Part shown: positions 6,407-31,990 of the stretch, piece by piece | Numbering within the stretch: position 1 is the stretch's first letter | Layout: the number at the start of each line of letters is the position of its first letter | Assembly (NCBI GenBank): GCA_017461045.1 | Contig: JAFTZJ010000054.1 | Location: 1-64,000 of the forward strand | Source of the DNA: Lachnospiraceae bacterium | GTDB taxonomy: Bacteria; Bacillota; Clostridia; Lachnospirales; Lachnospiraceae | Length of the DNA: 64,000 nucleotides | Direction of reading: 5' to 3' | The notes under the pieces: model-generated | Database searches by the model: none | Seen by the model: only the letters and a program-made list of their open reading frames with translations | What the model was told of the DNA's origin: nothing | Position numbers and translations under genes: made by a program

Positions 6407-6421
6407 TATTCTAACCTCTTG

Positions 6422-10042: not shown

Positions 10043-10081
10043 TTCCCTTTTCCTCATAGTCCTATTATAATTCGCGACTCG

Positions 10082-14950: not shown

Positions 14951-14985
14951 CTTCTCAATACCTTATAGCAAAATTATTCATAATA

Positions 14986-14994
14986 ATTATAGCA
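14986..14994 (-). promoter_or_regulatory. Extended -10 promoter for the glycosyltransferase-protease-GH5 unit
   Basis: The minus strand reads TGCTATAAT, a TGn-extended -10 box ending 35 bases before the start codon at 14950. No good -35 box sits 17 bases upstream (TAGTAT), so the extended -10 would have to compensate. It is back to back with the manC promoter. Confidence 0.4.
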
Positions 14995-15022
14995 TTAATC
15001 CTTCAAAAATACTATGTTTTTC

Positions 15023-15051
15023 TTGTCTTTACTTTGTGGATATTGTATTAT
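15023..15051 (+). promoter_or_regulatory. Sigma-A promoter for manC-gmd-rmd
   Basis: TTGTCT (15023-15028), a 17-base spacer and TATTAT (15046-15051) lie 28 bases before the manC start. The RBS is GGAGG at 15068-15072. Confidence 0.6.
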
Positions 15052-15078
15052 AAACATATACATTTTTGGAGGTTTGTA

Positions 15079-16149: not shown

Positions 16150-17199
<1,050 letters not shown>

Positions 17200-17211
17200 G
17201 GAGTATTCCGA

Positions 17212-18150
17212 ATGAAAGCACTTATCATTGGAGCTGCCGGATTCGTTGGCAGTTATCTGATACAACATTTAAAAAACGATTTAAACTGGGATATTATTGC
17301 AACAAAGCTTCCCCAAGAATCCATTAATATTGAAGACATTACAGTATATGATTTGGATATCTTGAAGAAAGATAGTGTTCTCGAATTATTGCAATCTACA
17401 AAACCGGAAATGATTGTTCATCTGGCAGCACAAAGTTCTGTAGGAGTCTCTTGGAATAACCCTTCCCTTACTGTGGATATTAACATAAAGGGAAGCATCA
17501 ACGTTCTAGATACAGTACGGGAGTTGGATTATCAACCTCGTATTCTGCTAATTGGTTCCGGTGAAGAATACGGTCGTATTCTCCCAACAGAAACACCAAT
17601 TCAAGAAGACACCTTATTGCGTCCCGGCAACATCTACGCTGCTACCAAGGCTTGTCAGAATATGATTGGAAAAATCTATACAGATGCCTATCAGATGGAT
17701 ATTGTATCGGTTCGTGCATTTAACCACATTGGCCCAAATCAAGCACCACTTTTCGTAGTTGCAGACTTCTGCAAACAGGTCGCGGAGATTGAAGCAGGAC
17801 AAAAAGAGCCTGTTATCCATGTAGGGAACTTAAGTGCTAAGCGTGATTTTACCGACGTACGAGATGTGGTTCGTGCTTATGGTCTGCTTCTTCAACATGG
17901 TAAGTCCGGAGAAACCTACAATGTAGGAAGTGGTCACGCCATTGCGATTCAGGAAATATTAGATACCATTGTAAGACAATCAACTACATCCATTGAAGTG
18001 AAGGTTGACTCCGCAAAGCTTCGTCCGGTGGATGTGCCGATTATCGAAGCAGATACTTCTAAGCTTCACGCATGTACCGGTTGGACCCCGGAAATCCCTT
18101 TGAATGAAACGATTAAAGATGTATTAGAATATTGGAGAACTCAAATCTAA
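17212..18150 (+). CDS. rmd: GDP-6-deoxy-D-mannose reductase (GDP-4-keto-6-deoxymannose reductase)
   Basis: 312 residues. Reduces the Gmd product at C-4 to give GDP-D-rhamnose. GAAGFVGSYLIQHL is the NAD(P)-binding motif (about 7-20); GSGEEYG and YAATKACQN carry the catalytic Ser/Tyr/Lys set; FNHIGPNQ and NVGSGHAIAI are family-typical. There is no 3,5-epimerase signature as in GDP-fucose synthase, so Rmd is preferred over Fcl. It begins 12 bases after gmd and ends before a strong terminator. D-rhamnose is uncommon and occurs in A-band-like polymers, which agrees with the Wzm/Wzt exporter in this locus. Confidence 0.88.
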   Translation: MKALIIGAAGFVGSYLIQHLKNDLNWDIIATKLPQESINIEDITVYDLDILKKDSVLELLQSTKPEMIVHLAAQSSVGVSWNNPSLTVDINIKGSINVLDTVRELDYQPRILLIGSGEEYGRILPTETPIQEDTLLRPGNIYAATKACQNMIGKIYTDAYQMDIVSVRAFNHIGPNQAPLFVVADFCKQVAEIEAGQKEPVIHVGNLSAKRDFTDVRDVVRAYGLLLQHGKSGETYNVGSGHAIAIQEILDTIVRQSTTSIEVKVDSAKLRPVDVPIIEADTSKLHACTGWTPEIPLNETIKDVLEYWRTQI

Positions 18151-18180
18151 TATGCGTTTGATTATATTGCATACAAACTA

Positions 18181-18230
18181 GAAAAGGAATGAGACAACTT
18201 CGTAAAAAGAAAGTTGTCTCATTCCTTTTC
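18181..18230. terminator. Bidirectional rho-independent terminator between rmd and ugd
   Basis: A perfect 20-bp stem (18181-18200 with 18211-18230) encloses a 10-base loop. Its outer bases give an A tract on one side and TTTTCTT on the other, so it can stop transcription from both converging units. Confidence 0.92.
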
Positions 18231-18266
18231 TTATCTTCTAAAAATCTTTATCAACAGAATGATGTT

Positions 18267-19565
18267 CTACATTACGCATCTTCTACCGATCGAATCATAT
18301 ACCATTCCGGTTCCTTCAAAATCTGATACTTTATAGCAATTTCTACCATCAATGATAATTGCCTTCTTCATTAAGTCTTTATATAATCGAACATCAAATT
18401 GGGTTACAGCCTCCCACTCTGTAAAAATCAAGCACAGGTCTGCATCTCGAATAGTATCCTCAATGGTATCATAATACGCAATTCCTTCCGGAATCTTCTT
18501 CTTAAAGTTCTTAACACCTACCGGATCCCAAGCCTTTACCTTGGCGCCATCATCGATTAGAAGCGGTATATTCACAAGAGATGGTGCTTCCCGTAAATCA
18601 TCTGTGCCCGGCTTGAAAGTTAACCCTAATACAGCAACTGTCAGACCTTCGAAATCATCATAATACTTTCTTGCTTTCTTAATGAGCTTGAACTTCTGAC
18701 TTTCATTCACTTCAATGGCAGCCTTGATTGTCTTAATCTCATTATCATTGAAGCTTGCCAACCAACTTAAAGCCTTGGTGTCTTTCGGAAAACAAGAACC
18801 GCCATACCCAATACCGGATTTTAAGAACTTGTTACCAATTCGGGTATCATATCCCATACCTTCCGCAACATCTTCCACATCTGCTCCTACTATTTCACAC
18901 AAGTTGGCAATCTCATTAATATAAGATATCTTTAATGCAAGGAAATCATTGGATGCATACTTAATCATCTCTGCACTTCTACGATTAGTTACCAGCTTCG
19001 GTGCATCAAATCCTGCATATACACGTTTCAACACCTCACCTGCTTCCGGAGTCTCTACACCAATGACTATACGTGCTGCATGTAAGGTATCCCTTACTGC
19101 GGTACCCTGTGCTAAGAATTCCGGATTAGAAGCTACTGTCACCACTACATCCTTTGCCAAATGGCTCTGGATATAAGTTTCTACTTTATCATTGGTACCG
19201 ATTGGTACTGTGGACTTCACTACTACAACGCAATCCCGTTCTACAGATTCCGCAATCTGTCTTGCCACAGTATACACATAAGATAAATTGGCAGAACCAT
19301 CCTTCTTCTCCGGTGTACCTACCCCAATGAAAATTACTTCCGCATCCTGATATGCAGTCTTATAATCCGTTGTAAAGGTAAGACAATCCATACTTTCCTT
19401 CATGAGTTCCTCTAACCCCGCCTCATAAATGGGTGAAACTCCCTGTCGCATGATTTCTACCTTCTTCTCATCTACATCTACACATGTAACCTGATGTCCT
19501 TTACTTGCCAGACATACACCGGTTACTAACCCAACATAACCTGTACCTGCCACTGCAATCTTCAT
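18267..19565 (-). CDS. ugd: UDP-glucose 6-dehydrogenase
   Basis: 432 residues. Oxidises UDP-glucose twice to UDP-glucuronate with NAD. The N-terminal Rossmann motif is KIAVAGTGYVGLVTGVCLA; EVIFIGVGTPEKKDG, VVKSTVPIGTND and NPEFLAQGTAV are family blocks. The catalytic Cys lies in GYGGSCFPKDTKAL (about 258). The C-terminal domain has VLGLTFKPGTDDLREAPS. RBS AAAGGAGGA. The last gene of the long leftward unit, 1 base after the GT2 stop and before the shared terminator. Supplies a uronic acid, so the surface polymer may be acidic. Confidence 0.96.
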   Translation of the reverse strand: MKIAVAGTGYVGLVTGVCLASKGHQVTCVDVDEKKVEIMRQGVSPIYEAGLEELMKESMDCLTFTTDYKTAYQDAEVIFIGVGTPEKKDGSANLSYVYTVARQIAESVERDCVVVVKSTVPIGTNDKVETYIQSHLAKDVVVTVASNPEFLAQGTAVRDTLHAARIVIGVETPEAGEVLKRVYAGFDAPKLVTNRRSAEMIKYASNDFLALKISYINEIANLCEIVGADVEDVAEGMGYDTRIGNKFLKSGIGYGGSCFPKDTKALSWLASFNDNEIKTIKAAIEVNESQKFKLIKKARKYYDDFEGLTVAVLGLTFKPGTDDLREAPSLVNIPLLIDDGAKVKAWDPVGVKNFKKKIPEGIAYYDTIEDTIRDADLCLIFTEWEAVTQFDVRLYKDLMKKAIIIDGRNCYKVSDFEGTGMVYDSIGRRCVM

Positions 19566-19566
19566 C

Positions 19567-20274
19567 TTATTGTCCTCCTTTTATCCTCATGCCAAACAGG
19601 CGGAACAATGTCTTAATGTAACTGATAATAAATGGAATCAACCGACGTTTGGACTCTCCGTACAAACGCTTATTAAAAGATATTGGACTCTCGCCAATCC
19701 GAAACTCTTTCTTGCCAACCAAGAGCTTTAATTTCAGAAGTATTTCTTCCAACACATCATAATTGGTACAGGTTAACGTAATCTGCTTTAATTGCTCTGT
19801 TTTGTAGATACGATAATTGGTGGACATATCCTTCACCTTAATTCCCAAGCATACGCGATAGGCGGTATTCAACATCCACGACATAATCTGAGAACTCTTG
19901 GCATCAGAGGTTTGTCCTCCCTTTACATATCGTGACCCAATTACCACGTCATAGCCTTCCATAAACTTCTCATATATAGCCGGGATATGAGCTGGATCGT
20001 GAGAACCATCACTATCCAAAGCCAGCATCTTATCCATAGTAGCCATCTGAATTCCCTTACGATAAGCACCACCAAAACCCGGTTCTTCTTGATTGTAATA
20101 TTTGGCACCTACTTCTTCGCATAATTCTTTGGTATTATCCAAAGGTTCCTTGGTGTCAATTACAAGAAACTCATATTCTTCTCCGGTTTTCTCCAATGCC
20201 TCTTTTAGCTTTGGAAATAACACTCTTAAATTCTCTTCTTCTTTATATGCCAGAAGCATTACACTAATTCCCAC
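19567..20274 (-). CDS. Dolichol-phosphate mannosyltransferase-like GT2
   Basis: 235 residues from the GTG at 20274, which has AGGAGAG 6 bases upstream; an ATG 33 bases further up has no RBS. The GT2 domain covers the whole protein: GISVMLLAYKEEENLRVLFP, then the metal-binding LALDSDGSHDPAHIPAIYEKF (split as LALDSDGS and DPAHIP), GSRYVKGGQ and STNYRIYK. It has no C-terminal TM segment, unlike the GtrB-type genes in this locus, so it may use a soluble donor with a lipid acceptor. It lies between the epimerase and ugd genes; substrate unknown. Confidence 0.82.
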   Translation of the reverse strand: MGISVMLLAYKEEENLRVLFPKLKEALEKTGEEYEFLVIDTKEPLDNTKELCEEVGAKYYNQEEPGFGGAYRKGIQMATMDKMLALDSDGSHDPAHIPAIYEKFMEGYDVVIGSRYVKGGQTSDAKSSQIMSWMLNTAYRVCLGIKVKDMSTNYRIYKTEQLKQITLTCTNYDVLEEILLKLKLLVGKKEFRIGESPISFNKRLYGESKRRLIPFIISYIKTLFRLFGMRIKGGQ

Positions 20275-20326
20275 TTTTCGCTCTCCTCTTCTCTGTTTAC
20301 AACACATATATTGCTATATCACTTAT

Positions 20327-21247
20327 TTATACTTTTTGTTGTACAATAATATTTTCTATTCCCTTTTCAAACTCTACCTGTGGCAAAAAACCGGTATCAT
20401 TCTGTAATTGTCCGATATCTGCACACAAATACATTACCTGTTTTTCTCCATAAGGTACAGATCCCAATGCAAGTTCAGCACCGGGTTTAACAACATCACG
20501 GATGGTTTCTATGTATTCTTTCAACGGTTTTGCTTTACCACTACCCAATACATATATACTTCCATCTTTTCCTTGCTGACCAATCATTCGAAACGCTCTC
20601 GCTGCATCACCGCTATACAAATAATCCCACATTTGTTCTCCCTTGGTAAACTGTGGAACTTCACCACATTGCAGTTTCTGAATTGTAGACATAACCATGC
20701 TCTGCAATCCATCATTCGGTCCGTATATACTTAATATCCGCACCCAGATATGTTCTAAGCCCAATTGATGTGCATATTCTCGGCTCATCTGACCTGCACA
20801 CAGCTTTCCTATACCATACCCCATTTCCGGGAATGTCGGTGTGTCCGGTTGCAATGCACCTTCTACCCGTCCATATTCTGCCTGTGAACCGGCACCAACA
20901 AAAGTATGACAGCCAAAACGTTTTGCCACACCAACAGCATCTAATGCATATTGTACATTTCGGTTTTGCAGATACATATCGTTTCTGGCAGTCCCTGTAG
21001 TACCTTCCCATGCAAAATGATAGAATACATCATATTCTTTTCCTGTTGTATTCTCGATACCGGCTAATTTATCTAACGGACAATCCATTAATTTTACCAA
21101 CGGATGTTTTGGAATATTAGTATTCCGTGGTGAACCATCCCTTACAAATACAAGCACTTCTATATTATGATTAATGCATTCCTGTATCAAAGCCGTTCCC
21201 ACAGAACCTGTAGCACCGGTTATAATGATACGTTTGATTTCTTTCAT
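20327..21247 (-). CDS. NAD(P)-dependent sugar epimerase/reductase (possible CDP-sugar ketoreductase)
   Basis: 306 residues, extended SDR fold. RIIITGATGSVGTALIQE gives the GxxGxxG motif (about 6-23). AGSQAEYG and YGIGKLCAG (about 143-151) supply the active-site Tyr and Lys; RILSIYGPND and DYLYSGDAARA follow. It is closest in layout to reductases that finish CDP-3,6-dideoxyhexoses (abequose synthase) or to YerF of CDP-yersiniose synthesis. I infer that role because rfbFGH and a TPP enzyme share the locus. A 4-epimerase acting on another nucleotide sugar is an alternative. RBS TAGGAGAA. Confidence 0.75.
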   Translation of the reverse strand: MKEIKRIIITGATGSVGTALIQECINHNIEVLVFVRDGSPRNTNIPKHPLVKLMDCPLDKLAGIENTTGKEYDVFYHFAWEGTTGTARNDMYLQNRNVQYALDAVGVAKRFGCHTFVGAGSQAEYGRVEGALQPDTPTFPEMGYGIGKLCAGQMSREYAHQLGLEHIWVRILSIYGPNDGLQSMVMSTIQKLQCGEVPQFTKGEQMWDYLYSGDAARAFRMIGQQGKDGSIYVLGSGKAKPLKEYIETIRDVVKPGAELALGSVPYGEKQVMYLCADIGQLQNDTGFLPQVEFEKGIENIIVQQKV

Positions 21248-21257
21248 CTAAATTCTC

Positions 21258-22280
21258 CTAACGGCTTACTCTACCGGAGCCATCCCCTTCTGCTAATTTC
21301 AGAACCTCTTCTACAGATACCTGATTAAAATCGCCCTCAATGCTATGCTTCAGACAACTTGCTGCTACTGCGAATTCAATCGTTTTCTGGCAATCAAATC
21401 CCTGCATCTGTGCATATATTAAACCAGCACCAAAGGAATCGCCTCCGCCAACACGATCTACTATATGCATATCATATTCCCGACTTTGATAAAATGCGTT
21501 TCCATCATACAGCAAAGCCGACCACTTATTATCCGATGCACTTATGGATTTTCGAAGTGTAATGGCTACTTTCTCCAAATCAAACCGCTGACATAATTGG
21601 GTAGCCACACTTTCGTAACCCTTGGTATCAATTACTCCTGCCGTTACATCTGTATCATCTGCAGTTATACCAAACACATCTGCCGCATCTTCTTCATTAG
21701 CAATGACTACATCAATATAATCCATCAGTTGCCCCATAACTTTACCAGCCTGTTCTTTTGACCAAAGTTTCTTACGATAATTCAAATCACAACTGATTTT
21801 TATCCCTTTTTTCTTCGCAACCTTACATGCATTTTCACAGATTTTTGCAACATTTTCACCTAATGCAGGTGTAATACCGGTAAAATGAAACCATTCTGCA
21901 TCTTCGAAAATTACATCCCAGTCGAAATCATTTACATCGGCTTCCTGAATAGAGGAATGTGCACGGTCATAAATTACTAATGACGGTCGTTGACTGGCAC
22001 CTTTTTCCAGATAATAAATACCGATACGTTCACCGCCGCGTACAATCTGCCGTGTATCCACACCGTATCTTCGCATTGAATTTACGGCAGCATCGCCAAT
22101 TTGATGACTTGGTAATTTAGTTACAAATGCAGTATCCAATCCATAATTTGATAACGAAACAGCAACATTTGCTTCCGCTCCGCCATAGGTTGCTCCAAAT
22201 GATTCCGCTTGCACAAAACGATAATATCCTTCCGGCGCTAATCGCAACATCAATTCTCCAAACGTTACTACCTTTGCCAT
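21258..22280 (-). CDS. PfkB-family sugar kinase, 2-keto-3-deoxygluconate kinase type
   Basis: 340 residues of ribokinase fold. Start motif VVTFGELMLRLAPEGYYRF; sugar-binding YGGAEANVAVSLSNYG (about 32-47); the catalytic Asp and anion hole in DRVGGGDSFGAGLIYA (about 273-288). The N-terminal pattern is that of KdgK, which phosphorylates 2-keto-3-deoxygluconate. No other pectin or uronate catabolic gene is nearby. It is embedded 15 bases after an aldolase gene in a nucleotide-sugar cluster, so it more likely phosphorylates a keto-deoxy sugar intermediate made for surface glycan synthesis. The true substrate is unknown. Confidence 0.8.
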   Translation of the reverse strand: MAKVVTFGELMLRLAPEGYYRFVQAESFGATYGGAEANVAVSLSNYGLDTAFVTKLPSHQIGDAAVNSMRRYGVDTRQIVRGGERIGIYYLEKGASQRPSLVIYDRAHSSIQEADVNDFDWDVIFEDAEWFHFTGITPALGENVAKICENACKVAKKKGIKISCDLNYRKKLWSKEQAGKVMGQLMDYIDVVIANEEDAADVFGITADDTDVTAGVIDTKGYESVATQLCQRFDLEKVAITLRKSISASDNKWSALLYDGNAFYQSREYDMHIVDRVGGGDSFGAGLIYAQMQGFDCQKTIEFAVAASCLKHSIEGDFNQVSVEEVLKLAEGDGSGRVSR

Positions 22281-22295
22281 TTTACTCTTCCTCTC

Positions 22296-23876
22296 CTATT
22301 CTACAGTTCCATAATGAGTCGGTGTTAAGAACTGCAACTGAATCTTCTTCTTAATTTGTTCCATTTCTGCCGAAATTAATCGATTACGTTTCTCTGCTTC
22401 AGTTGAAAAATCATAGTCCAAATTCCGGTCGAAATAATCTCCGTTTTGAATTCCGGAGTAGCCGTCCATTCCTGCAATACGAACCTGTTTTACACCGATT
22501 GCAATCAACAGTTTCAATGCCATTACACCTGAATTATCAATAATCTCTGACTCTGCTGAGGTATAACTTGCAAAATTCACCATATAATCATATTGCTCTG
22601 CCTCTTTCATATTCGAGGTAATAATACAGGTTGCATTTGTCTTTCCTTCTATTTTGTTATAACGACGCATATTACTGCTAAAAATATACTGAATCGGGTA
22701 TTCTTCTTCTGCAAAATTTACCGCAATTACCACTGTGTCCGGTTCCTGTAATGCTTTTTCAATAACAGCCTTACAATCCAATAAGCTTTTCCCCGGTGCC
22801 AACAGTAAAACATTCTTACCATCAAATTCCGCTGACAGCTTCTTGATAGTCTCTCTGTCATCAATAAAACTCTCTTGATATTCCCGATAATACTTTTCTG
22901 CCTTCTCTTTGCTGAAATTGGCTTTTTCTTCCTTTGGAATACTCCGTAACAATTCATTGAAGGAACGAACTGTTAAGCTATCCTTTTCTTCTAAATATAC
23001 TGCATAATTCGGATGACAGCCTGCATTTGCCGACAGATATAGCGGCAAAGAATACCCCCAGAATTTCGCTTTATAAATATCATTCAGATACTCATCCATA
23101 ATTTCCAACATAGGTTCAATGCGATAATGAGTATCATAATTCTCATTCATATACTCTGCAAACAATTCCAAATTCAAATTGCCGGCACCACGTCCCATAC
23201 CAAATACACATGCATCGATACAGATATCCCGTTTCAAATTCAGCTCTACTAATGCCTCTGCATTACCAAATGCCTGTTGCAAATTATTATGAGCATGATA
23301 ACATAAGGCAATTCCTTCTGCCATATTATTATCTGCCAGATATGCCAAACGAAGAAATTGTTTCCGTTTAATCAAACCAAATGTATCAACAATGGTCATT
23401 GCATATGGACGTAGCACATTAAATCGCTCAATTGCCTCAATGAACTCCTTGTCCGTATACAAATCCGTTCCAACAAAATTCACAAACAACATATACCCCA
23501 ATTCCATAATCCGCTGACAATAGGTATATGCTTCTTCTATTTTGTCTTTCTTAAAAATCACTCGAATTCCTTCAATCGAAGTACCATCACAAGGTGTAAT
23601 ACGTTCCAAAGGAATCGGAGCACTCATATCCAACATTCCTACATAAATCATTTTCTCCGCTTTCGGCTGTATTACATCCCTTATAGACTCTATATCAGGA
23701 AATACGGCACGGTCTTTATCATAGGTATCTCCTTTAATAAATCCCACTTCATACATTTCAATTCCGGTTTGTACAATCTTTTGACTAAATCCTTTTATCG
23801 TCTCTTCTCCAAAACGCCAGTCATTTACATAACCGCCATCTCTGAGTGTACAATCCAGCAAACTAATTTTTCCCAT
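22296..23876 (-). CDS. HMGL-type aldolase with an extra C-terminal domain
   Basis: 526 residues from the ATG at 23876, which has AGGAGG 6 bases upstream (an in-frame codon at 23894 lacks one). Residues about 1-290 form a TIM barrel of the HMG-CoA lyase/4-hydroxy-2-oxovalerate aldolase group. LLDCTLRDGGYVNDWRF carries the metal Asp and catalytic Arg; LCYHAHNNLQQAFGNAEAL gives the HxH metal ligands. A C-terminal domain at about 355-515 has a Rossmann-like start (DGKNVLLLAPGKSLLD) and an end, VKQVRIAGMDGYSG, that resembles proteins which handle surface-sugar intermediates. It is paired with the TPP enzyme gene 26 bases upstream. It may make or cleave a carbon-carbon bond in an unusual sugar; substrates unknown. 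Confidence 0.8.
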   Translation of the reverse strand: MGKISLLDCTLRDGGYVNDWRFGEETIKGFSQKIVQTGIEMYEVGFIKGDTYDKDRAVFPDIESIRDVIQPKAEKMIYVGMLDMSAPIPLERITPCDGTSIEGIRVIFKKDKIEEAYTYCQRIMELGYMLFVNFVGTDLYTDKEFIEAIERFNVLRPYAMTIVDTFGLIKRKQFLRLAYLADNNMAEGIALCYHAHNNLQQAFGNAEALVELNLKRDICIDACVFGMGRGAGNLNLELFAEYMNENYDTHYRIEPMLEIMDEYLNDIYKAKFWGYSLPLYLSANAGCHPNYAVYLEEKDSLTVRSFNELLRSIPKEEKANFSKEKAEKYYREYQESFIDDRETIKKLSAEFDGKNVLLLAPGKSLLDCKAVIEKALQEPDTVVIAVNFAEEEYPIQYIFSSNMRRYNKIEGKTNATCIITSNMKEAEQYDYMVNFASYTSAESEIIDNSGVMALKLLIAIGVKQVRIAGMDGYSGIQNGDYFDRNLDYDFSTEAEKRNRLISAEMEQIKKKIQLQFLTPTHYGTVE

Positions 23877-23902
23877 TTCAAACCTCCTAAGCATAACACT
23901 TG

Positions 23903-25747
23903 TTATGCCTCTTCCACCGGCTTAATATACAAATTCTCCAACAATTCTTCTCTTGGCAGGAATGGTGCCAAATCCTCTAACGGCGGGCTAACCAAGGTTC
24001 CATCCGGTAATCGCTTGGTACTACTCTTCGGCTCCCATACCTGAACTGTATCCGTAAATATTTCACAGAACGCAAAACCCGGTTGCTTCAGGACTTCTTC
24101 TACTACTGTCTTCATTTCGTCATTGCTATGGGCACTATAATACGGATAACCAAATGCTTCCGCAATCTTCTTATACTCAGGGAATGACAAGTCTTGCGAC
24201 TCCGGTCCGATTCCTATTTTGCAATGGTCAGCAAACAAATTATTCTGTGTCAGACGGATTGAATGATAACCTTCGTTGTTAATCAAAAAAACCTTGATTG
24301 GCAAACGATTCGTTACAATTGTCTGTAATTCCTGCAGATTCATCATAATAGAACCATCACCTTCCAGACAAATGGTTTCCTTTCGTCCTCCTGCTATACA
24401 TAATCCGATTGCTGCCGGCAAACCATATCCCATACTGGCTACTGCACTATTAATAATAAATCTGGTACCTTTCTTTATCATATAATTCTGGTGTCCTACT
24501 ACACAACAAGCACCATTCGATACCGCAGTCAGACTATCCTCCGGTAACTGACTACTTAGATGACGAATAAATGCAAATACATTGGCAGTTCCTTCATCTG
24601 CATCCCAATGTCTCTGTAAAGTAACCGGATACTTCGCTTTCCAATTCTGACAGATTTCCAACCACTCTTGATTCATAAATACTGTACCGGTTTCTTTTTC
24701 CAAACAAGCATTCATAGTGTGCAGAAAATCTTTTGCATCTGCCCATACCGGCATATCAACATGGATGGTATGCTTCTTCATCTCTGCCGCATCTACATCC
24801 ACCATAATCACTTCAGCTTCCCGTGCCCAAGTGTTAAAGCTATAACCGGTTTGACGAATGGAAATTCTGGTTCCGATTGCTAATAACAAATCCGCATTCT
24901 GTACTGCAAAATTACCGGCTCTGTCACCCATATTACCGCCACGGCCTACATACAATGGATGTTCGTCTTCAATCAAATCCACACTATTCCAATAGGTTGC
25001 AATCGGTACATTCAACACTTCAATTGCTTTTCGAAATTCTTCAAATCCACCGGATAAGCGAACACCTCCACCAGCATAGATTACCGGTCTTTTTGCTTTA
25101 CGAAGCTTCTCAATAATTGTTTCTACCACTTCCACAGATACCTTTGGTGGCAATGCTGCATCATCCTCAGTTGGGTCGTATCCTTCTAATTCATCGGTTT
25201 CAATATATCCACCTTGGAAATTTACCGGAACATCAATCCAAACAGGTCCCGGACGACCGGTGGTTGCCAAATGCCATCCCTTTTCCAATGCATAACGAAT
25301 CTGCTTTGGATCTTCAATCATAGTTGCATATTTACACATTGGTTCCACAGACTTTACAATATCATATTCCTGATCACCAACTGCACGTAGTGGCAGACCA
25401 TCTGTAAACTGCTGTGCATATCTGGCTGTGGTATCATAACGAACCTGTCCGGAAATAACGAACATCGGAATTGAATCTAACCAACCACCCACAACACCGG
25501 TAATTGCATTCGTACCACCCGGTCCGGTTGTTACACATAATGCAGCAATCCGATTATCCAAGCGGGCGTACGCTTCTGCCGCAATGGCACAAGCCTGTTC
25601 ATGATGGTTGTAGGTTACTTTTAATCCTTCTTTATGTCCGAACGCATCATTCAAATGCATGGCACCACCGACTACTACACTAAAACAATCCGTCACACCA
25701 TGTGCTACCAAGAAATCTGCTATATAATCTGCCAAACGTTGTTTCAT
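23903..25747 (-). CDS. Thiamine-diphosphate enzyme of the acetolactate synthase fold (YerE-like candidate)
   Basis: 614 residues with the three-domain layout of acetolactate synthase large subunits. The cofactor-activating Glu is E50 in YNHHEQACA; the central domain carries KRPVIYAGGGVRLSGG; the TPP-binding segment GDGSIMMNLQELQT (about 462) ends in INNEGYHS. Family members transfer a two-carbon unit from pyruvate to an acceptor. In Yersinia, YerE adds it to C-4 of a CDP-3,6-dideoxy-4-keto-sugar. Placement among rfbFGH, a sugar kinase, an aldolase and an SDR reductase, and absence of an IlvN regulatory subunit or other branched-chain amino acid genes, argue for sugar branching here. A catabolic role (IolD-like) is an alternative. 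Confidence 0.82.
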   Translation of the reverse strand: MKQRLADYIADFLVAHGVTDCFSVVVGGAMHLNDAFGHKEGLKVTYNHHEQACAIAAEAYARLDNRIAALCVTTGPGGTNAITGVVGGWLDSIPMFVISGQVRYDTTARYAQQFTDGLPLRAVGDQEYDIVKSVEPMCKYATMIEDPKQIRYALEKGWHLATTGRPGPVWIDVPVNFQGGYIETDELEGYDPTEDDAALPPKVSVEVVETIIEKLRKAKRPVIYAGGGVRLSGGFEEFRKAIEVLNVPIATYWNSVDLIEDEHPLYVGRGGNMGDRAGNFAVQNADLLLAIGTRISIRQTGYSFNTWAREAEVIMVDVDAAEMKKHTIHVDMPVWADAKDFLHTMNACLEKETGTVFMNQEWLEICQNWKAKYPVTLQRHWDADEGTANVFAFIRHLSSQLPEDSLTAVSNGACCVVGHQNYMIKKGTRFIINSAVASMGYGLPAAIGLCIAGGRKETICLEGDGSIMMNLQELQTIVTNRLPIKVFLINNEGYHSIRLTQNNLFADHCKIGIGPESQDLSFPEYKKIAEAFGYPYYSAHSNDEMKTVVEEVLKQPGFAFCEIFTDTVQVWEPKSSTKRLPDGTLVSPPLEDLAPFLPREELLENLYIKPVEEA

Positions 25748-25749
25748 CT

Positions 25750-26700
25750 CTATATCTCCTCATCGTTAAAATTCAAACGTTCTTCTTCTACTACCAATGG
25801 TCGGTTCATCATTCGTTCATTAATGCTTAATACATATTCTCCGATTAAACCAATGAAGAATAACTGTATGGAACCAAGTATAAACATACCAATCAAAATC
25901 GGCGCCATTCCGGCTTGGAAACTGTCCCACATTACCAATTTCAAAATCAAATAAATCAATGCCAGCAGCATACTCAGTGCACCACACCCGCACCCGGCAA
26001 AAGTTGCAATCCGCAAACCTATTTTAGTATAAGAGGTAATGCTTAACATAGCTGCATCGTACAATGTATAAAAATTGTTATGAGTCTTACCCGCTCTTCG
26101 TTGCGGTTGAACATACGGTATTTCTTTCCGTTTAAATCCAAGTTCCGCTACAATTCCTCGTAAAAACGGCTTTGGATCCTTCAAATCACGTAATACATTT
26201 ACAAATTCCTTATCGTACAAACCAGAACCGGTAAAGTGTTCAATCTGCTCTACATCAGAAAACTTCTTTATCATTCTATAATAGATGCTTCGTAGCAAAT
26301 ACATGATTTTATTCTCTTTACTGCTTGTCTTAATACCGATTACTATCTTATAACCATTTTCCCATTCCTTAATATATTGCGGAATTAATTCAATCGGATC
26401 CTGAAAATCACATACCATAGAAATGGTACAGTCACCGGTTGTCTGTAAGATTCCATAATAAGGAGAATTGAACTGGCCGAAGTTCTTAGCATTAAATATG
26501 GCTTTAATATTCGAATTCTTACTACATATCTCACGTAACAACTCTCTGGTACGATCTCTCGAATCATTATCGATAAATACCAATTCGTAATTATAATTCG
26601 TTAACTCTGTTTCAAACAAGTTAACAATTGCCTCACTCATTGGCACTACATTCTCTTCTTCGTTATAACAAGGAATTAATATGCTAATTGTCTTTTTCAT
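25750..26700 (-). CDS. GtrB-like undecaprenyl-phosphate glycosyltransferase
   Basis: 316 residues from the ATG at 26700; a GTG 15 bases upstream is in frame but lacks an RBS. GT2 domain: ISILIPCYNEEENVVPM, FIDNDSRDRT, NFGQFNSPYYGIL and the metal site VCDFQDPIELIP. Two TM segments follow at about 225-255 and 262-290, then the GEYVLSINERMMNRP tail. This is the GtrB/YfdH/ArnC architecture that loads a sugar on undecaprenyl phosphate. Together with the GtrA-type and GT-C genes upstream it could form a three-part decoration system. It overlaps nothing but is only 2 bases from the TPP enzyme start. Confidence 0.88.
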   Translation of the reverse strand: MKKTISILIPCYNEEENVVPMSEAIVNLFETELTNYNYELVFIDNDSRDRTRELLREICSKNSNIKAIFNAKNFGQFNSPYYGILQTTGDCTISMVCDFQDPIELIPQYIKEWENGYKIVIGIKTSSKENKIMYLLRSIYYRMIKKFSDVEQIEHFTGSGLYDKEFVNVLRDLKDPKPFLRGIVAELGFKRKEIPYVQPQRRAGKTHNNFYTLYDAAMLSITSYTKIGLRIATFAGCGCGALSMLLALIYLILKLVMWDSFQAGMAPILIGMFILGSIQLFFIGLIGEYVLSINERMMNRPLVVEEERLNFNDEEI

Positions 26701-26750
26701 TTCTCTACGCCTCACATCATCGTATAAAAGTTCAATATTACCATAAACAT

Positions 26751-26778
26751 ATCATATTTTACCCTTATTTGCAATCAA
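26751..26778 (-). promoter_or_regulatory. Sigma-A promoter for the GtrB-like to ugd unit
   Basis: The minus strand reads TTGATT (26773-26778), a 16-base spacer and TATGAT (26751-26756), about 50 bases before the GT2 start and directly after a terminator. It would drive a seven-gene unit down to 18267. Confidence 0.55.
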
Positions 26779-26789
26779 TACACATGAAC

Positions 26790-26829
26790 AAAACGGGAGC
26801 CTTTGGTTGATACCAAATGCTCCCGTTTT
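26790..26829 (-). terminator. Rho-independent terminator after the GT-C gene
   Basis: Stem AAAACGGGAGC/GCTCCCGTTTT (26790-26800 with 26819-26829), with an inner TTTGGT/ACCAAA pairing. It starts 4 bases after the stop of the leftward GT-C gene. The minus-strand exit is TTTTG, a short T run. Confidence 0.82.
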
Positions 26830-26832
26830 ATT

Positions 26833-28089
26833 CTATGAATTCGTCTTCAAAAGTTTTCGTTTCACACGTGTAGAATTATCTCCTATGTTATAATACAAAA
26901 TCATTCCCAAAAGCAATGCTGCATTAATTACAATCTGTATACCTATTCCATGAGGTGCCAACATATAGTAATATGCCTTTGGTATCATTAATAGACCATT
27001 CAAAACCAAATAAATTATGTCAACTGACTTCTTTTCACTCTTATCTGCAATTAAAAATAATACAATCGCCGGAAATAAGAATGTTAAATTATAGTCATAG
27101 GAATTCGGTATTAAGAATACCATTAAAGCCGTCATAGCCATCACTCGCTTCCATGCCAGCTTTTCTCTCCATACGTTCCACAATGTCCAAAGTGCTAACG
27201 CACTTCCAACCACAAAATATATCCGCATTACATGCACATTTTCAGGCACAATCAGATTATTCCATAATACGAATGGTAACCTTAAAATAGACGACAATCC
27301 AACGCTAAAGTATACATTTGGAACTTCATTAGTATATCCGCCTCCAAAAGCAAATAAGGCACAGATAATCTCTTTAATATTCTGAATATATCCACCCTTA
27401 AACATAATAAGTGTCAATGCTGAAGTTATAAAAACGGTTCCGCATGCAATCAATAATGGTTTCCATTTCTTATCCAAGAAGAAGATAAAAAATATCAATA
27501 AAGGATAAATCTTAATAGCTGCTGCCAACCCTAGAAAAATCGCTGCCGCTGTATCATTTTTGTCATAATAATAAGCAAAAAACAAGTAACATACAATTGC
27601 TACCAGCAAATAATTCCCTCGATCCAGCATCCATACATATGGTGCCGTAAATATCAGAATCCAAACCACAGGCGGAATCAATATCTTATGCTTGAACAAT
27701 TCCTTTTCCCGCAGAAATATTATACATAAAAACACGAAAATAATAGCTGTAAACATTCCAATAAACAGAATAAAAGAAATCTTTCCTTCCGTGGTATACA
27801 CGATTTCATACGGAATATAGGTCTTATAATCTGCCATTAATGAAAACAAATACGCAATTGCCAAAATCAATGGTGGATACGTAGAATAATAATCTACATA
27901 CGGTCTCAATCCGGTAACCATCTGATTTACGTTAAAGAAATCCATATACTGGTCAACCGGAAAGAATAAAAAGCTACCATGAGGATATACCATTCCGTTC
28001 TTTCGTACAATCCATGAAAAAATTCCAAAACATATATAGCCTGCAAGAATAATCATGATAATTGTCCAGATTTTCTTTTGTCGTTGCAT
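26833..28089 (-). CDS. GT87-like integral membrane mannosyl/glycosyltransferase
   Basis: 418 residues with about ten TM helices. After TM1 comes a long extracytoplasmic loop with FFPVDQYMDFFNVNQ and VDYYSTYPPL, the position of the catalytic acidic residue in GT-C enzymes of the DUF2029/GT87 group. The segment KIYPLLIFFIFFL near residue 195 is also typical of that group. It would use a polyprenyl-phosphate sugar to decorate a glycan outside the membrane. Tight spacing to the GtrA gene (5 bases) suggests they work together. Donor unknown. Confidence 0.75.
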   Translation of the reverse strand: MQRQKKIWTIIMIILAGYICFGIFSWIVRKNGMVYPHGSFLFFPVDQYMDFFNVNQMVTGLRPYVDYYSTYPPLILAIAYLFSLMADYKTYIPYEIVYTTEGKISFILFIGMFTAIIFVFLCIIFLREKELFKHKILIPPVVWILIFTAPYVWMLDRGNYLLVAIVCYLFFAYYYDKNDTAAAIFLGLAAAIKIYPLLIFFIFFLDKKWKPLLIACGTVFITSALTLIMFKGGYIQNIKEIICALFAFGGGYTNEVPNVYFSVGLSSILRLPFVLWNNLIVPENVHVMRIYFVVGSALALWTLWNVWREKLAWKRVMAMTALMVFLIPNSYDYNLTFLFPAIVLFLIADKSEKKSVDIIYLVLNGLLMIPKAYYYMLAPHGIGIQIVINAALLLGMILYYNIGDNSTRVKRKLLKTNS

Positions 28090-28094
28090 GATTC

Positions 28095-28613
28095 TTATAA
28101 CTCCTCTTTACTCTTTTTCTTCTGTCTATACGCCCAAAACTTGTTAATGCAGAAGTTAATCGGTATGGTAATTACCATATTCAAGAATGGTGCAATGGAT
28201 ACTGCCACATCCCCTCCGGTCATAGTCAGTCCAAAGTTACCAAGCCAGCCTGCTACCGGCTCCAGATACTGTCCGATATTCAACACATTGATCCATAGAA
28301 TCAACAACACTTCCGTTAAAAACAAACCGGAAAATGCATAGGATGCATAGGTTTTTAACAATACCTGCCACCATACCCGATGCTCTCCTTCTTCGGATTC
28401 CTTGAATACGAACCGGCTTTGCCAGAAGTATGCATTCAATACACTAATAATAAATCCTACGATATTTGCTACATGCACATTGGTATGAAACACGTAATAG
28501 CACAAGGAATAAGTTGCATAGGATACAACCGTATTAGATACTCCTACTAAACCAAACTTGATAAACTGCCACAGGGCAGCAAGGCCCTTTTTCTTTTCTT
28601 CTTTATTGCTCAT
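28095..28613 (-). CDS. GtrA-family membrane protein (lipid-linked sugar flippase)
   Basis: 172 residues from the ATG at 28613; a GTG four codons upstream is possible. GtrA family start ALWQFIKFGLVGVSNTVVSY, then NIVGFIISVLNAYFWQSRFVF, and four TM helices in all. GtrA proteins are thought to flip undecaprenyl-phosphate-linked glucose or other sugars for GtrC-type transferases. Here a relatively long hydrophilic loop (GEHRVWW) and the extension before TM4 are seen. Located between rfbH and the GT-C gene, consistent with transfer of a CDP-derived deoxysugar. Confidence 0.88.
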   Translation of the reverse strand: MSNKEEKKKGLAALWQFIKFGLVGVSNTVVSYATYSLCYYVFHTNVHVANIVGFIISVLNAYFWQSRFVFKESEEGEHRVWWQVLLKTYASYAFSGLFLTEVLLILWINVLNIGQYLEPVAGWLGNFGLTMTGGDVAVSIAPFLNMVITIPINFCINKFWAYRQKKKSKEEL

Positions 28614-28654
28614 TTTTTCTTCCACATCATTCTACATAGTATTCAGAAGCAATT

Positions 28655-29992
28655 CTACTGAATTGCTTCCTTAATGGTCTTTGCCATATAATCAATCATT
28701 TCATCGGTCATTCCCGGATAAACACCTACCCAGAAGGTCTCGTTCATAATACGATCTGTATTGGTTAATTCACCCACTACACGATAACCTTCTCCGGTCT
28801 TACGCATATCATCAAAGCATGGATGCTTAATCAGATTACCTGCGAATAACATACGGGTCTGAACACCATGGTCTTCCACGTACTGAACTACCTTATTACG
28901 GTCTACACCTTCCTTACATGTAATCAGGAATCCAAACCAGCTTGGTCTTGAATTCTCACATGGTTCCGGAAGAATTAATTTATCTTCAGTTCCTGCCAAA
29001 GCCGCCTTCAAACGGTCAAAATTATGACGACGACGCTCTACAAAGCTTGGGAACTTTACAATCTGTGCACAACCGACTGCAGCCTGCATATCTGTTGCCT
29101 TTAAGTTATATCCAAAATGAGAATAAACATACTTATGGTCATAACCTAATGGCAATTCTCCATACTGCTTATCGAAACGATGTCCACATAAGTTATCACA
29201 ACCGGATGGACATACACAATCTCTTCCCCAATCACGGAAGGAACGGATACACTTATTCAGTAATGGGTTGTTCGTATAAACGGCACCACCCTCACCCATA
29301 GTCATATGGTGTGGAGGATAGAAGCTGGAGGTTCCGATATCACCAATGGTTCCGGTGAATTTCTCTTCTCCGTCAATAGTATACTTTGAACCCAAAGCAT
29401 CACAGTTATCTTCTACTAACCATAGGTTATGTTTGTCACAGAATTCCTTTACTGCCTTCAAATCAAAAGGATTACCTAAGGTATGTGCTACCATAACTGC
29501 CTTAGTCTTCTCCGAATAAGCTTCTTCTAACTTCGTTACATCAATGTTATACTGTGGAATCGTTACATCTACGAATACCGGTACTGCACCAAACTGAATG
29601 GCAGGTGCTACTGTAGTTGGGAAGCCGGCTGCGACTGTAATCACTTCATCTCCACGCTGAATTGCACGTTCTCCTAATAATGGAGAGGTTAACGCCATAA
29701 ATGCATTTAAATTAGCAGAAGAACCAGAATTCACTAAGGAACAGAACTTTACGCCCAGGTACTCTGCAAACTTCTTCTCGAATTCATCGGTATAACGGCC
29801 TGCTGTTAACCAGAATTCCAATGCACTGTCTACTAAATTACACATTTCTTCATGTCCATATACACGGGATGCATATGGAATACGGTCTCCTTCTTGGAAA
29901 GGACCCTTTTGATTGTGATAGGTATCGCAGTAATCTGCTACCATATCCAATATCTGCTTCTTTGCCTGATCTTCTGTCATATTTTCAAACAT
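28655..29992 (-). CDS. rfbH: CDP-6-deoxy-4-keto-glucose 3-dehydrase (E1)
   Basis: 445 residues. PMP- and iron-sulfur-dependent dehydrase that removes the C-3 hydroxyl of CDP-6-deoxy-4-keto-glucose. It has the DegT/aspartate aminotransferase fold, but the usual PLP lysine is replaced by His in SSFYPPHHMTMGEGG (about 227), the hallmark of E1. The cluster C-x-CPSGCDNLC (about 258-267) supplies the [2Fe-2S] ligands. VNSGSSANL and DNCDALGS bind the cofactor. It needs an electron-transfer reductase (E3, ascD/ddhD type), which is not in this window. RBS AAGGAG; 65 bases after rfbG. Confidence 0.96.
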   Translation of the reverse strand: MFENMTEDQAKKQILDMVADYCDTYHNQKGPFQEGDRIPYASRVYGHEEMCNLVDSALEFWLTAGRYTDEFEKKFAEYLGVKFCSLVNSGSSANLNAFMALTSPLLGERAIQRGDEVITVAAGFPTTVAPAIQFGAVPVFVDVTIPQYNIDVTKLEEAYSEKTKAVMVAHTLGNPFDLKAVKEFCDKHNLWLVEDNCDALGSKYTIDGEEKFTGTIGDIGTSSFYPPHHMTMGEGGAVYTNNPLLNKCIRSFRDWGRDCVCPSGCDNLCGHRFDKQYGELPLGYDHKYVYSHFGYNLKATDMQAAVGCAQIVKFPSFVERRRHNFDRLKAALAGTEDKLILPEPCENSRPSWFGFLITCKEGVDRNKVVQYVEDHGVQTRMLFAGNLIKHPCFDDMRKTGEGYRVVGELTNTDRIMNETFWVGVYPGMTDEMIDYMAKTIKEAIQ

Positions 29993-30057
29993 TTTTCTAA
30001 TCTCCTTGTCTTCTCATTACTATCTTGCATATTAACAATATTATAATTGTATATATC

Positions 30058-31128
30058 TTACTTTTCGTTATTCATATAGTCTTCAATCTGCTTGTCCATA
30101 ATCGCAGGAATGTCTCCATTTGCAAAATACACCTTGGTCCATTCCACCACCTTGTCCAATGCCTCGGATACATTCCAACGTGGTTTCCACTTGAAGGTCA
30201 TCTTAAGCTTCGAACAATCCAGCTTCAAGAAATTCGCCTCATGAGGACCTCCATCATACTGATTGATCCAGTGCATACCATCTCCCCATTTGGCACAGAA
30301 CATATCCACAATGTCTCCGGTAGTTACACAATCCAAATCATCCGGTCCTACATTATAGTAATCCGCATATTTTCCGTCTTCATACTGCTTCTGGGCAATC
30401 ATCAGATATGCCATAACCGGTTCCAAGACATGCTGATATGGACGTGTAGAATGCGGATTCCGCACCACAATCGCTTCCTTCTTACCGGCTGCCCGTACAC
30501 AATCCGGAATAATCCGGTCATTGGCAAAATCTCCGCCACCGATTACATTACCGGCTCTGGAGGTAGAAATCGCTACCCGACCATCCTCAAAAAAAGAACT
30601 CTTATAACTATGGGTTACCAACTCCGAACAAGACTTACTGTTAGAATATGGATCATAACCATCTAATGGCTCATTCTCGCGATAGCCCCATTCCCATTCA
30701 TTGTTCTTGTATACTTTATCCGTTGTAACATTCACAAAGGACTTTACGCAGTCATTCAAACGGATACACTCCAGAATATTCACCGTACCCATAACATTGG
30801 TTTCATAGGTATATACCGGATCCTTGTAGGAATCCCGTACAATTGGCTGTGCTGCCATATGAATTACAATCTCCGGCTGTGCTTCTGCAAATACCTGCTT
30901 TAGCTTCTCTAAATCCCGGATATCTCCAATTATAGAAGTCATCTGTTCTTCCACTCCACACATGGAGAATAGATTCGGATTGGTTGGTGCTTCCAGAGAG
31001 TATCCTGTAAGAATTGCTCCGGCATTCACTAATACACGGCTCATCCAAGAGCCCTTAAAGCCTGTATGTCCGGTTAATAATACATTCTTGCCTTTATAAA
31101 ATCCAAGGTCTAAACCATTTGCTTCCAT
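30058..31128 (-). CDS. rfbG: CDP-glucose 4,6-dehydratase
   Basis: 356 residues, extended SDR. Converts CDP-glucose to CDP-6-deoxy-4-keto-glucose. NAD motif NVLLTGHTGFKGSWMSRVL (about 15-33) is specific to this subgroup. HMAAQPIVRDSYKDP, NVTTDKVYKNNEW and DPYSNSKSCSE (Tyr/Lys pair) follow. RAGNVIGGGDFANDRIIPD is also diagnostic. RBS GGGAGGA. Starts 3 bases after rfbF, so the two are translationally close. Second step of the CDP-3,6-dideoxyhexose pathway. Confidence 0.96.
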   Translation of the reverse strand: MEANGLDLGFYKGKNVLLTGHTGFKGSWMSRVLVNAGAILTGYSLEAPTNPNLFSMCGVEEQMTSIIGDIRDLEKLKQVFAEAQPEIVIHMAAQPIVRDSYKDPVYTYETNVMGTVNILECIRLNDCVKSFVNVTTDKVYKNNEWEWGYRENEPLDGYDPYSNSKSCSELVTHSYKSSFFEDGRVAISTSRAGNVIGGGDFANDRIIPDCVRAAGKKEAIVVRNPHSTRPYQHVLEPVMAYLMIAQKQYEDGKYADYYNVGPDDLDCVTTGDIVDMFCAKWGDGMHWINQYDGGPHEANFLKLDCSKLKMTFKWKPRWNVSEALDKVVEWTKVYFANGDIPAIMDKQIEDYMNNEK

Positions 31129-31131
31129 TTT

Positions 31132-31911
31132 CTAGTCCTCCCACACCTTCCAAGGTGCTTTTCCGTCTGCAATCATTTCTTCTAACTGATTCTTATCTCT
31201 GGTGGTATCCATACACTTCCAGAAACCATCGTGGGTATATGCTTTCAACTGTCCTTCCGATGCCAATTTCTCCAGTGGTGCCTTCTCAAATACGGTTGTA
31301 TCCCCTTCGATATAGTCGAAAATCTCCGGATTCAATACCATATAACCACCATTGATTACACTTCCATCCCGGTCTGACTTCTCTCGGAATTTATGAATAG
31401 TTCCTTCCTTGTCAATGTCCAATACACCAAACTGCTGTCCCACATTTACTGCGGTCATGGTTGCAATCTTACCATGCTCTTTATGGAACTTCACCAATTC
31501 TTCCAGATTCACATTGGCAACTCCATCTCCATAGGTTAACATAAATGGTTCGTTTCCAATATACTTTTTAATACGCTTCACCCGTCCTCCGGTCATAGTG
31601 TTCAATCCGGTATCTACCAAGGTTACCTTCCATGGTTCTGTGTAAGTCTTATGCACTTCCATAGCACCATTCTCTGTAAAATCAAAAGTAATATCACTGG
31701 TATGCAAATAATAATCTGCAAACCACTCCTTAATTACATGCTGCTTGTAGCCACAGCAGATAACAAATTCGTTATATCCATATGACGAATAGTATTTCAT
31801 AATATGCCAAAGAATCGGCTTACCACCAATCTCAACCATTGGCTTCGGCTTCAAATAACTTTCTTCGCTGATTCGGGTGCCGAATCCACCGGCTAACAAT
31901 ACGACCTTCAT
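31132..31911 (-). CDS. rfbF: Glucose-1-phosphate cytidylyltransferase
   Basis: 259 residues. Forms CDP-glucose from CTP and glucose-1-phosphate. Nucleotidyltransferase signature VVLLAGGFGTRISEESYLKP (about 3-22), PMVEIGGKPILWHIMKYYS, TGLNTMTGGRVKR and LTYGDGVANVN are all typical of RfbF. RBS AGGAGG. First gene of the CDP-sugar unit, behind the promoter at 31991-32019; followed by rfbG, rfbH, gtrA and a GT-C gene up to the terminator at 26.8 kb. Confidence 0.97.
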   Translation of the reverse strand: MKVVLLAGGFGTRISEESYLKPKPMVEIGGKPILWHIMKYYSSYGYNEFVICCGYKQHVIKEWFADYYLHTSDITFDFTENGAMEVHKTYTEPWKVTLVDTGLNTMTGGRVKRIKKYIGNEPFMLTYGDGVANVNLEELVKFHKEHGKIATMTAVNVGQQFGVLDIDKEGTIHKFREKSDRDGSVINGGYMVLNPEIFDYIEGDTTVFEKAPLEKLASEGQLKAYTHDGFWKCMDTTRDKNQLEEMIADGKAPWKVWED

Positions 31912-31990
31912 AATGCGTACCTCCTATAATCAATGTATTGCTCTTTATCAGAGCCCATAACTATCCCATTTTTACCCATACATAAATAAC

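Follow-up and report, generated by a model that had tools for sequence, protein, structure and literature searches.

Which sugar is built by a gene block in which the enzymes of a CDP-3,6-dideoxyhexose pathway stand beside a thiamine diphosphate (ThDP, or TPP) enzyme, an aldolase and a sugar kinase? The question is raised by a locus of a Lachnospiraceae bacterium (assembly GCA_017461045.1, contig JAFTZJ010000054.1), of which positions 1-64,000, hereafter the window, were analysed; the block occupies 18267-31911. The best reading is an erwiniose/caryophyllose-like route, of the yersiniose/erwiniose kind, with its own donor-making aldolase. The block would be a cassette for a 3,6-dideoxyhexose carrying a long hydroxylated branch at C4, the aldolase likely making the donor and a YerE-like ThDP enzyme likely grafting it. 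This reading, drawn from sequence comparisons, is given a probability of about two in three.

Enzymes of the block

An initial annotation had placed rfbF, rfbG, rfbH, a TPP enzyme, an aldolase, a PfkB kinase resembling 2-keto-3-deoxygluconate (KDG) kinase and a short-chain dehydrogenase/reductase (SDR) in one leftward block. Coordinates and domain or cut-off matches bear this out: all are present and all run leftward (minus strand). The gaps are 8 bp between the ThDP enzyme and aldolase genes, 15 bp between aldolase and kinase and 10 bp between kinase and SDR. This order is found again in four other loci (L006, L008, L011 and L023), and positions 20358-25753 align with the clostridial contig L006 as a single 5.47-kb stretch of 68.9% DNA identity, so that the grouping is not due to chance.

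The acceptor is predicted to be CDP-3,6-dideoxy-4-keto-glucose, as had been proposed. The genes rfbF (31132..31911, glucose-1-phosphate cytidylyltransferase, predicted to make CDP-glucose; TIGR02623, 396.2 bits, cut-off 300.25), rfbG (30058..31128, CDP-glucose 4,6-dehydratase; TIGR02622, 446.2, cut-off 278.45) and rfbH (28655..29992, CDP-4-keto-6-deoxyglucose 3-dehydrase of E1 type; NF011936, 729, cut-off 423) all exceed curated cut-offs. RfbH has HHMTMGEGG at the place of the pyridoxal phosphate lysine of aminotransferases, together with the cysteines of RDCVCPSGCDNLCGHRF (motifs read in the sequence); both stretches are presumably hallmarks of an E1 dehydrase. No reductase supplying electrons to RfbH was seen in the block, and no search aimed at such a reductase (RfbI/E3) was made.

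The ThDP enzyme (23903..25747) has the three domains PF02776, PF00205 and PF02775 and the cofactor motif GDG...N (G458, D459, G460 and N485, JanthE numbering). Among solved structures the best match is 8rph (E = 3.3e-132), followed by 5ahk, which we take to be the pyruvate-type PpYerE (2.1e-66), and plant acetohydroxyacid synthase (AHAS; 2.8e-62). The available text of PMC12188165 describes 8rph as JanthE, a YerE-like ketone ligase. JanthE and the window enzyme share 38% identity over 602 residues, and a 38-row tree groups the latter with JanthE and 32 others (support 100/99). Plant AHAS, the genome's own IlvB (L002), 5ahk and the enzyme of locus L063 lie on the opposite side (100/99); the tree is midpoint-rooted with long branches flagged, so the split from 5ahk is unsure, and IolD was not among its rows. 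A phylogeny of this kind had been suggested as a check, and the enzyme does not group with amino-acid acetolactate synthases: it stands with JanthE and apart from IlvB. The candidate identification as an acetolactate synthase was rejected on this ground. Kinship to JanthE and the presence of the rfb genes support the earlier proposal that chemistry of the YerE type takes place here: the acceptor would be a CDP-3,6-dideoxy-4-ketohexose, and carboligation onto its ketone is the predicted activity.

Some relatives of this enzyme occur in other contexts. In L040 (G166:C25:36001-56000) an enzyme of 71% identity to that of the window lies among genes that by eye look flagellar (FlgL-, FliW- and FliD-like), a hint of a part in flagellin glycosylation. 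A C-methyltransferase-like gene follows the SDR gene in the TPP loci L021, L045, L047 and L050 (with a Methyltransf_14 C-terminal domain in L045), and branch or ring may be methylated there. Single stops in some TPP matches were considered as signs of decay and this was dropped, the frames of L041, L042 and L068 being open across nearly the whole match. A search for the enzyme among plasmids (1e-80) led nowhere.

The aldolase (22296..23894) has two domains. The first (residues ~7-320 in predicted models and fold searches) is a DmpG-like TIM barrel of the HMGL-like family (PF00682, 52 bits, cut-off 29) with a metal HxH motif; it matches DmpG-type aldolases and 3dxi by profile and fold (profile matches 3dxi, 8ih7 and 1nvm). 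TLRDGG and HxHNN are invariant in 38 aldolase sequences, with H200 and H202 among the invariant residues, and in a set of 67 copies 58 have the first motif and 62 the second. The second domain (~322-532) is predicted to have an MptE/sialyltransferase-like fold. It gave weak MptE-like profile matches and nothing further with Pfam and PDB sequence profiles, and no sialyltransferase was among 23 PDB sequences matched at E up to 10. The Pfam scan reported neither a KDPG-aldolase (2-keto-3-deoxy-6-phosphogluconate aldolase) family match nor the DmpG communication domain PF07836 for the window aldolase, and no DmpF was found among the window proteins scanned. A search for the aldolase in phages led nowhere.

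The kinase gene (21258..22280) encodes a PfkB-domain protein matching 2afb, presumably the 2-keto-3-deoxygluconate kinase of T. maritima, over its full length (416.7 bits, residues 3-340 of 340). Its score is below the cut-off of the KdgK equivalog NF052444 (53.1 against 400 bits) and of the aldolase-kinase fusion NF041633 (606.1 against 700, for the kinase half of the fusion). It looks like a recruited KDG-type kinase whose substrate is likely a 2-keto-3-deoxy acid and whose role in the route is putative. The window genome (67.5% complete) yielded no other kinase of this type, and none was found at 1e-70 in the congener G314 (99% complete); it thus probably arrived with this locus. In L006, L008, L011 and L023 the kinase directly follows the aldolase; these four kinases group together at 100/100 and weakly with that of the window (89/79). 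A literature search on KDG-kinase residues led nowhere.

The extended SDR (20327..21247, PF01370, Epimerase) is the predicted reductase of the new branch ketone, the role of YerF. Its best solved match is 2pk3 (6.1e-14), a GDP-6-deoxy-D-lyxo-4-hexulose reductase, and its relatives come after the TPP enzyme or the aldolase in many loci.

Linkage across genomes and alternative readings

The proposed role of the aldolase is suggested by its linkage to the ThDP enzyme. Close relatives of the aldolase (54-78% identity) were collected from 25 loci in 24 genomes. A TPP gene of this type lies in the same stretch in 18 of the 25 loci, in one case as a piece at a contig end (L012). The TPP enzyme is present in 20 of the 24 genomes (12 of 16 by genome search and eight with the enzyme in the locus) and rfbH in 21 (13 of 16 and eight).

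The family at large was sampled with 299 genomes, about one per genus, at E values up to 1e-60 for the aldolase and 1e-120 for both the TPP enzyme and rfbH; the genome L003 (bacterium 1XD42-76, = G196 = G483) belongs to both this and the 24-genome set. The aldolase was found in 65, the TPP enzyme in 85 and rfbH in 99 genomes. Aldolase and TPP enzyme occur together in 34, the aldolase alone in 31, the TPP enzyme alone in 51 and neither in 183 (Fisher p = 3.2e-6, kinship uncorrected). The TPP enzyme and rfbH are associated with an odds ratio of 102 (both 78, TPP enzyme only 7, rfbH only 21, neither 193; kinship uncorrected). Moreover, a TPP gene lies within 10 kb of 33 of 71 aldolase copies, where 0.34 would be expected by chance if genomes of 3 Mb are assumed. 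The distance is within 1.2 kb in 28 of these 33 pairs and 640-738 bp in 13. A wider sample of the order (196 genomes) gave a much fainter signal, with the aldolase in 11 and the TPP enzyme in 17 genomes; both occur in the window genome and G051 only, on different contigs in the latter. Of genomes with the TPP enzyme 78 of 85 have rfbH, of those lacking it 21 of 214. The kinase stands beside 5 of 28 close aldolases, that of the window included.

Reading of 40 stretches revealed three builds. Genes in the fetched loci were labelled from the best BLAST hit or a motif only; L067-L106 were picked for aldolase-TPP pairs or high TPP identity, a choice of which the 299-genome counts are free. In the first build (L098-L100, L103-L106) rfb genes and the TPP enzyme occur without an aldolase. 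The second, of the window type, has the TPP enzyme and the aldolase with the kinase present or absent. The third (e.g. L067-L070, L083) has rfb genes, aldolase, HAD phosphatase, TPP enzyme and SDR in this order; the phosphatase of L068 is a HAD_2 protein. Among distant aldolase copies a HAD-type gene lies within three genes in 25 of 40 and a kinase in none, and among close copies, the window excluded, the figures are 2 and 4 of 27, many of these loci having been chosen for a nearby TPP gene. L089, which covers the place of L003, was excluded from these counts, as were the short duplicates L001, L002, L028-L038 and L065. In L004 (Desulfosporosinus sp. BG) and L027 a HAD-IIA-type phosphatase stands beside the aldolase.

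A different solution is found in L053 (G051:C106:1-17998), where rfbF-G-H, a split transketolase, DmpF (345.7 bits, cut-off 282.25), DmpG (360.3, cut-off 286), a TPP enzyme (38% identity), an SDR and a GT2 glycosyltransferase form one run. A clostridial genome would here possess all of an erwiniose-like route, reached independently. Two further settings combine aldolase relatives with rfbH and a split transketolase: L063 (G017:C36:1-19000) and the Desulfobaculum bizertense plasmid NZ_CP090010.1 (L066). By eye, the aldolase frame of L063 continues into a GT2-like part (1066 aa), and the TPP enzyme of this locus groups with 5ahk.

Several observations weigh against a fixed coupling of aldolase and ThDP enzyme, and the strongest of them are the aldolase-free loci with a near-identical ThDP enzyme. 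The seven loci of the first build (L098, whose TPP enzyme is 87% identical, L099, L100 and L103-L106) have rfb genes, the TPP enzyme and, except for L105, an SDR. Six of their seven genomes have no aldolase at 1e-60 anywhere, and one, G453, has a copy elsewhere. At five JanthE positions these enzymes keep the residues of the window enzyme: D121, M268 and R293, where JanthE has V121, Y268 and P293, and Y297 and K567, which the window enzyme shares with JanthE, as it does the DGTLVSPPLEDL tail. Among the rows compared, only L053, of the DmpFG type, has JanthE's V121, Y268 and P293. An active-site residue code for the donor was rejected, because the five residues occur with and without an aldolase; the residues do not reveal the donor, which in the window enzyme might be a different acid. 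That six aldolase-free genomes carry a TPP enzyme with these residues shows that the route can do without the aldolase. Strict one-to-one coupling was likewise rejected: 51 of the 85 TPP-positive family genomes lack an aldolase at threshold (kinship uncorrected). Conversely, four close-aldolase genomes lack the TPP enzyme at 1e-100, and in L007, L010 and L013 the aldolase (67-71% identity) stands by eye among housekeeping genes (mutS/mutL, uridine kinase-like and EF-G-like), with rfbH elsewhere in the genome. The aldolase itself falls below the 4-hydroxy-2-oxovalerate aldolase cut-off (TIGR03217, 43.3 against 286 bits) and has a tyrosine at what we take to be the position of the catalytic histidine of DmpG.

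The aldolase-free loci provide the case for plain CDP-yersiniose, in which the TPP enzyme would take pyruvate like YerE, the SDR would be YerF, and aldolase and kinase would serve something else nearby. It can also appeal to the arginine at JanthE position 293, common to the window enzyme, AHAS and 5ahk. This explanation is nevertheless considered unlikely: the aldolase gene begins directly behind the TPP gene in a pair that recurs, and the window enzyme lies on the JanthE side of the tree, tentatively apart from 5ahk.

The kinase adds doubts of its own. Kinases of the KDG type are common, occurring in 56 of 120 family genomes including that of the window, and the close-aldolase loci that have one are few, as noted above. 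The cluster kinases were also considered as a separate clade, which was rejected, because the kinases of L130 and L133, which lie beside KDPG-aldolase-like genes, fall among them. The window kinase is 66-69% identical to the other cluster kinases but 74% to one beside a KDPG-aldolase-like gene. A rival reading takes aldolase and kinase for a small catabolic route for 2-keto-3-deoxy sugar acids, found in a polysaccharide locus by happenstance; in its favour, KDG-type kinases of 66-74% identity stand beside KDPG-aldolase-like genes in L107, L130 and L133 (aldolases named by eye). The catabolic explanation is the least probable of those weighed here. The window aldolase matches the HMGL-like family rather than a KDPG-aldolase family, the kinase probably came with the locus, and kinase, aldolase, TPP enzyme and SDR are in one order in four other genomes. 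The outcome named earlier as speaking against the pathway, namely the aldolase/kinase pair occurring elsewhere without CDP-sugar genes, was found in part: such kinases are widespread, some of them beside KDPG-aldolase-like genes, and distant aldolases accompany CMP-sugar genes.

These distant aldolases adjoin a cytidylyltransferase together with a HAD phosphatase, of KdsC type or other, in L003, L055, L057, L058, L059 and L062, and a cytidylyltransferase without phosphatase in L061 (partners labelled by BLAST, with those of L055, L057, L003 and L059 checked further). The combination with a phosphatase is what the synthesis of a CMP-activated 3-deoxy-ulosonic acid would be expected to require, and the setting fits an aldolase making 2-keto-3-deoxy acids, often phosphorylated. 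The product of the window aldolase, too, could conceivably be a free ulosonic acid, activated with CTP and used in another surface sugar. In favour of this, the close aldolase of L016 lies three open reading frames from a cytidylyltransferase gene (PF02348), in a genome where neither the TPP enzyme (1e-100) nor rfbH was found, and the copies of L003 and L096 lie near both a cytidylyltransferase and a TPP enzyme. However, the close aldolases commonly pair with rfbH and the TPP enzyme, and no PF02348 match was obtained among the 30 window proteins scanned with Pfam, a part of the window's open reading frames. A separate ulosonate sugar is held to be very improbable, and the donor-making role in the CDP-sugar cassette remains the preferred reading of the aldolase.

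Proposed cassette exchange and surrounding genes

In the genus of the window genome, rfbH is present in seven of eight genomes, the window's included. Four congeners (L136, L138, L068 and L139) keep the flanks of the block, with protein identities of 89-96% for rfbH and 84-90% for each of the glycosyltransferases gt2b and gt2a. Between these flanks they have gtrA, aldolase (35-36%), HAD phosphatase, TPP enzyme (49-50%) and SDR, where the window has TPP enzyme, aldolase and kinase. At the DNA level the window and L136 are 77-83% identical over 15064-20273 and 82% over 28119-31927, while a single 210-bp match was listed over 21040-25166. In a fifth congener (L137) the stretch breaks off at the aldolase, and that of a sixth (L140) contains rfb genes but no TPP enzyme. 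We infer that the genes for the branch are swapped together while the core stays in place. That the congeners' cassette at the same place again contains an aldolase is a further argument against plain yersiniose.

The remaining genes of the block provide candidate transfer functions. A GT2 glycosyltransferase (25750..26715, PF00535) is PgfS/ArnC-like, although below the cut-off of NF047588 (170.3 against 500 bits), and is predicted to transfer the sugar to polyprenyl phosphate; many loci have a relative of it close to the TPP enzyme. It is accompanied by a GT87 membrane glycosyltransferase (26833..28089, PF09594) and a flippase-like GtrA-type membrane protein (28095..28625, PF04138). On the other side, the cassette is flanked by a second GT2 glycosyltransferase (19567..20307, PF00535; the gene with 84-90% identity in the four congeners) and a UDP-glucose 6-dehydrogenase-like gene outside the CDP route (18267..19565, TIGR03026 above cut-off).

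The surroundings are those of a polysaccharide locus: an ABC exporter (5054-7813) has a Wzt C-terminal domain, and gmd (TIGR01472, 487.2 bits, cut-off 415) belongs to a GDP-mannose branch. Genes for ManC-like, Gmd and SDR proteins (14917-18150) suggest a GDP-6-deoxyhexose, such as GDP-rhamnose, as a further building block of the same polymer. The region between the exporter and the glycosyltransferases (7928-12751) encodes a cellulase-like enzyme of family GH5 and a papain-like protease of family C1 that carries a lectin-like domain.

Proposed route and known systems

The following route is proposed. RfbF, RfbG and RfbH would produce CDP-3,6-dideoxy-4-keto-glucose by established family chemistry. 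The DmpG-like aldolase would join pyruvate and an aldehyde to a 4-hydroxy-2-oxo (2-keto-3-deoxy) acid, which the YerE-like enzyme would decarboxylate, adding the hydroxyacyl unit to C4 of the CDP-ketosugar. The SDR would then reduce the new ketone, and the product may be loaded on polyprenyl phosphate by GT2, flipped by GtrA and placed on the cell surface by GT87. To judge from the type of kinase, the donor may have six carbons, as 2-keto-3-deoxygluconate does, and the branch would then have five. The least certain step, on balance doubtful, is that the kinase phosphorylates the donor end, giving a phosphorylated branch or pulling a reversible aldol reaction forward. The earlier suggestion of a special acyl donor is supported, the aldolase being its likely source, and with it that of a longer branch; the kinase's part is tentative.

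A wider proposal, a little short of even odds, is that Gram-positive gut bacteria use interchangeable cassettes to build surface monosaccharides of a new class, with about eleven carbons. A single family of aldolases, whose fused sialyltransferase-like domain would bind cytidine nucleotides, would make 2-keto-3-deoxy acids either for CTP activation (ulosonates) or for YerE-like grafting on CDP-ketosugars. Whether the branch is phosphorylated, long or short would depend on kinase, phosphatase or aldehyde-dehydrogenase partners, and entire cassettes would be swapped at one locus within a genus, like serotype cassettes.

The linkage names candidate donor-making genes for erwiniose- and caryophyllose-type sugars in three versions: aldolase and kinase, aldolase and phosphatase, and DmpF and DmpG. 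These genes offer a directly testable way to new tertiary-alcohol carboligations. Among the matches listed in the open-access literature, of which coverage is incomplete, no description of an aldolase supplying the donor of a YerE-like enzyme was recognised. Long-branched sugars are described, in the part of a review that was available, from Gram-negative, spirochaete and mycobacterial envelopes. Their predicted reach now includes clostridia, among them the Lachnospiraceae, whose surface sugars are of importance for phages and for the host.

The yersiniose pathway shares with the window RfbF, RfbG and RfbH, here all above cut-offs, and an SDR-type reductase. To our knowledge, it has no donor-making genes beside its ThDP gene; the window differs in that aldolase and kinase adjoin this gene, in an order that recurs. 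For the erwiniose pathway (ErwE of Pectobacterium atrosepticum) we know of no kinase, unlike the window. According to the accessible text of PMC12247030, CDP-yersiniose formation in Yersinia pseudotuberculosis (YerE/YerF) likewise involves CDP-3,6-dideoxy-4-keto-glucose as acceptor and a ThDP enzyme that adds an acyl unit. Its donor is pyruvate and its branch has two carbons, whereas the window adds the aldolase and the KDG-type kinase and has a ThDP enzyme more akin to JanthE. The same text gives 4-hydroxy-2-oxo acids, not pyruvate, as donors of ErwE, and a similar preference for MMAR_2332 of caryophyllose formation (PMC12247030).

JanthE takes 4-hydroxy-2-oxovalerate with benzaldehyde, as stated in the part of PMC12188165 consulted. 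It differs from the window enzyme in its CDG motif, which is GDG in the window, and at the three positions V121, Y268 and P293. The window aldolase resembles DmpG of the DmpG/DmpF system, whose two proteins themselves occur in L053, in barrel fold and metal motif, and differs by its additional C-terminal domain. The kinase is distinguished from 2afb by genomic setting, a sugar-nucleotide cassette instead of uronate catabolism. Caryophyllose of the Mycobacterium marinum lipooligosaccharide (MMAR_2332), although from another host and another envelope, is the kind of product predicted for the window: a 3,6-dideoxy-4-C-(1,3,4,5-tetrahydroxyhexyl)hexose, whose branch is deoxy at C2' in the available account (PMC5706390). 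Branches of this kind thus exist, and the deoxy position is the pattern that a pyruvate-aldol donor would give.

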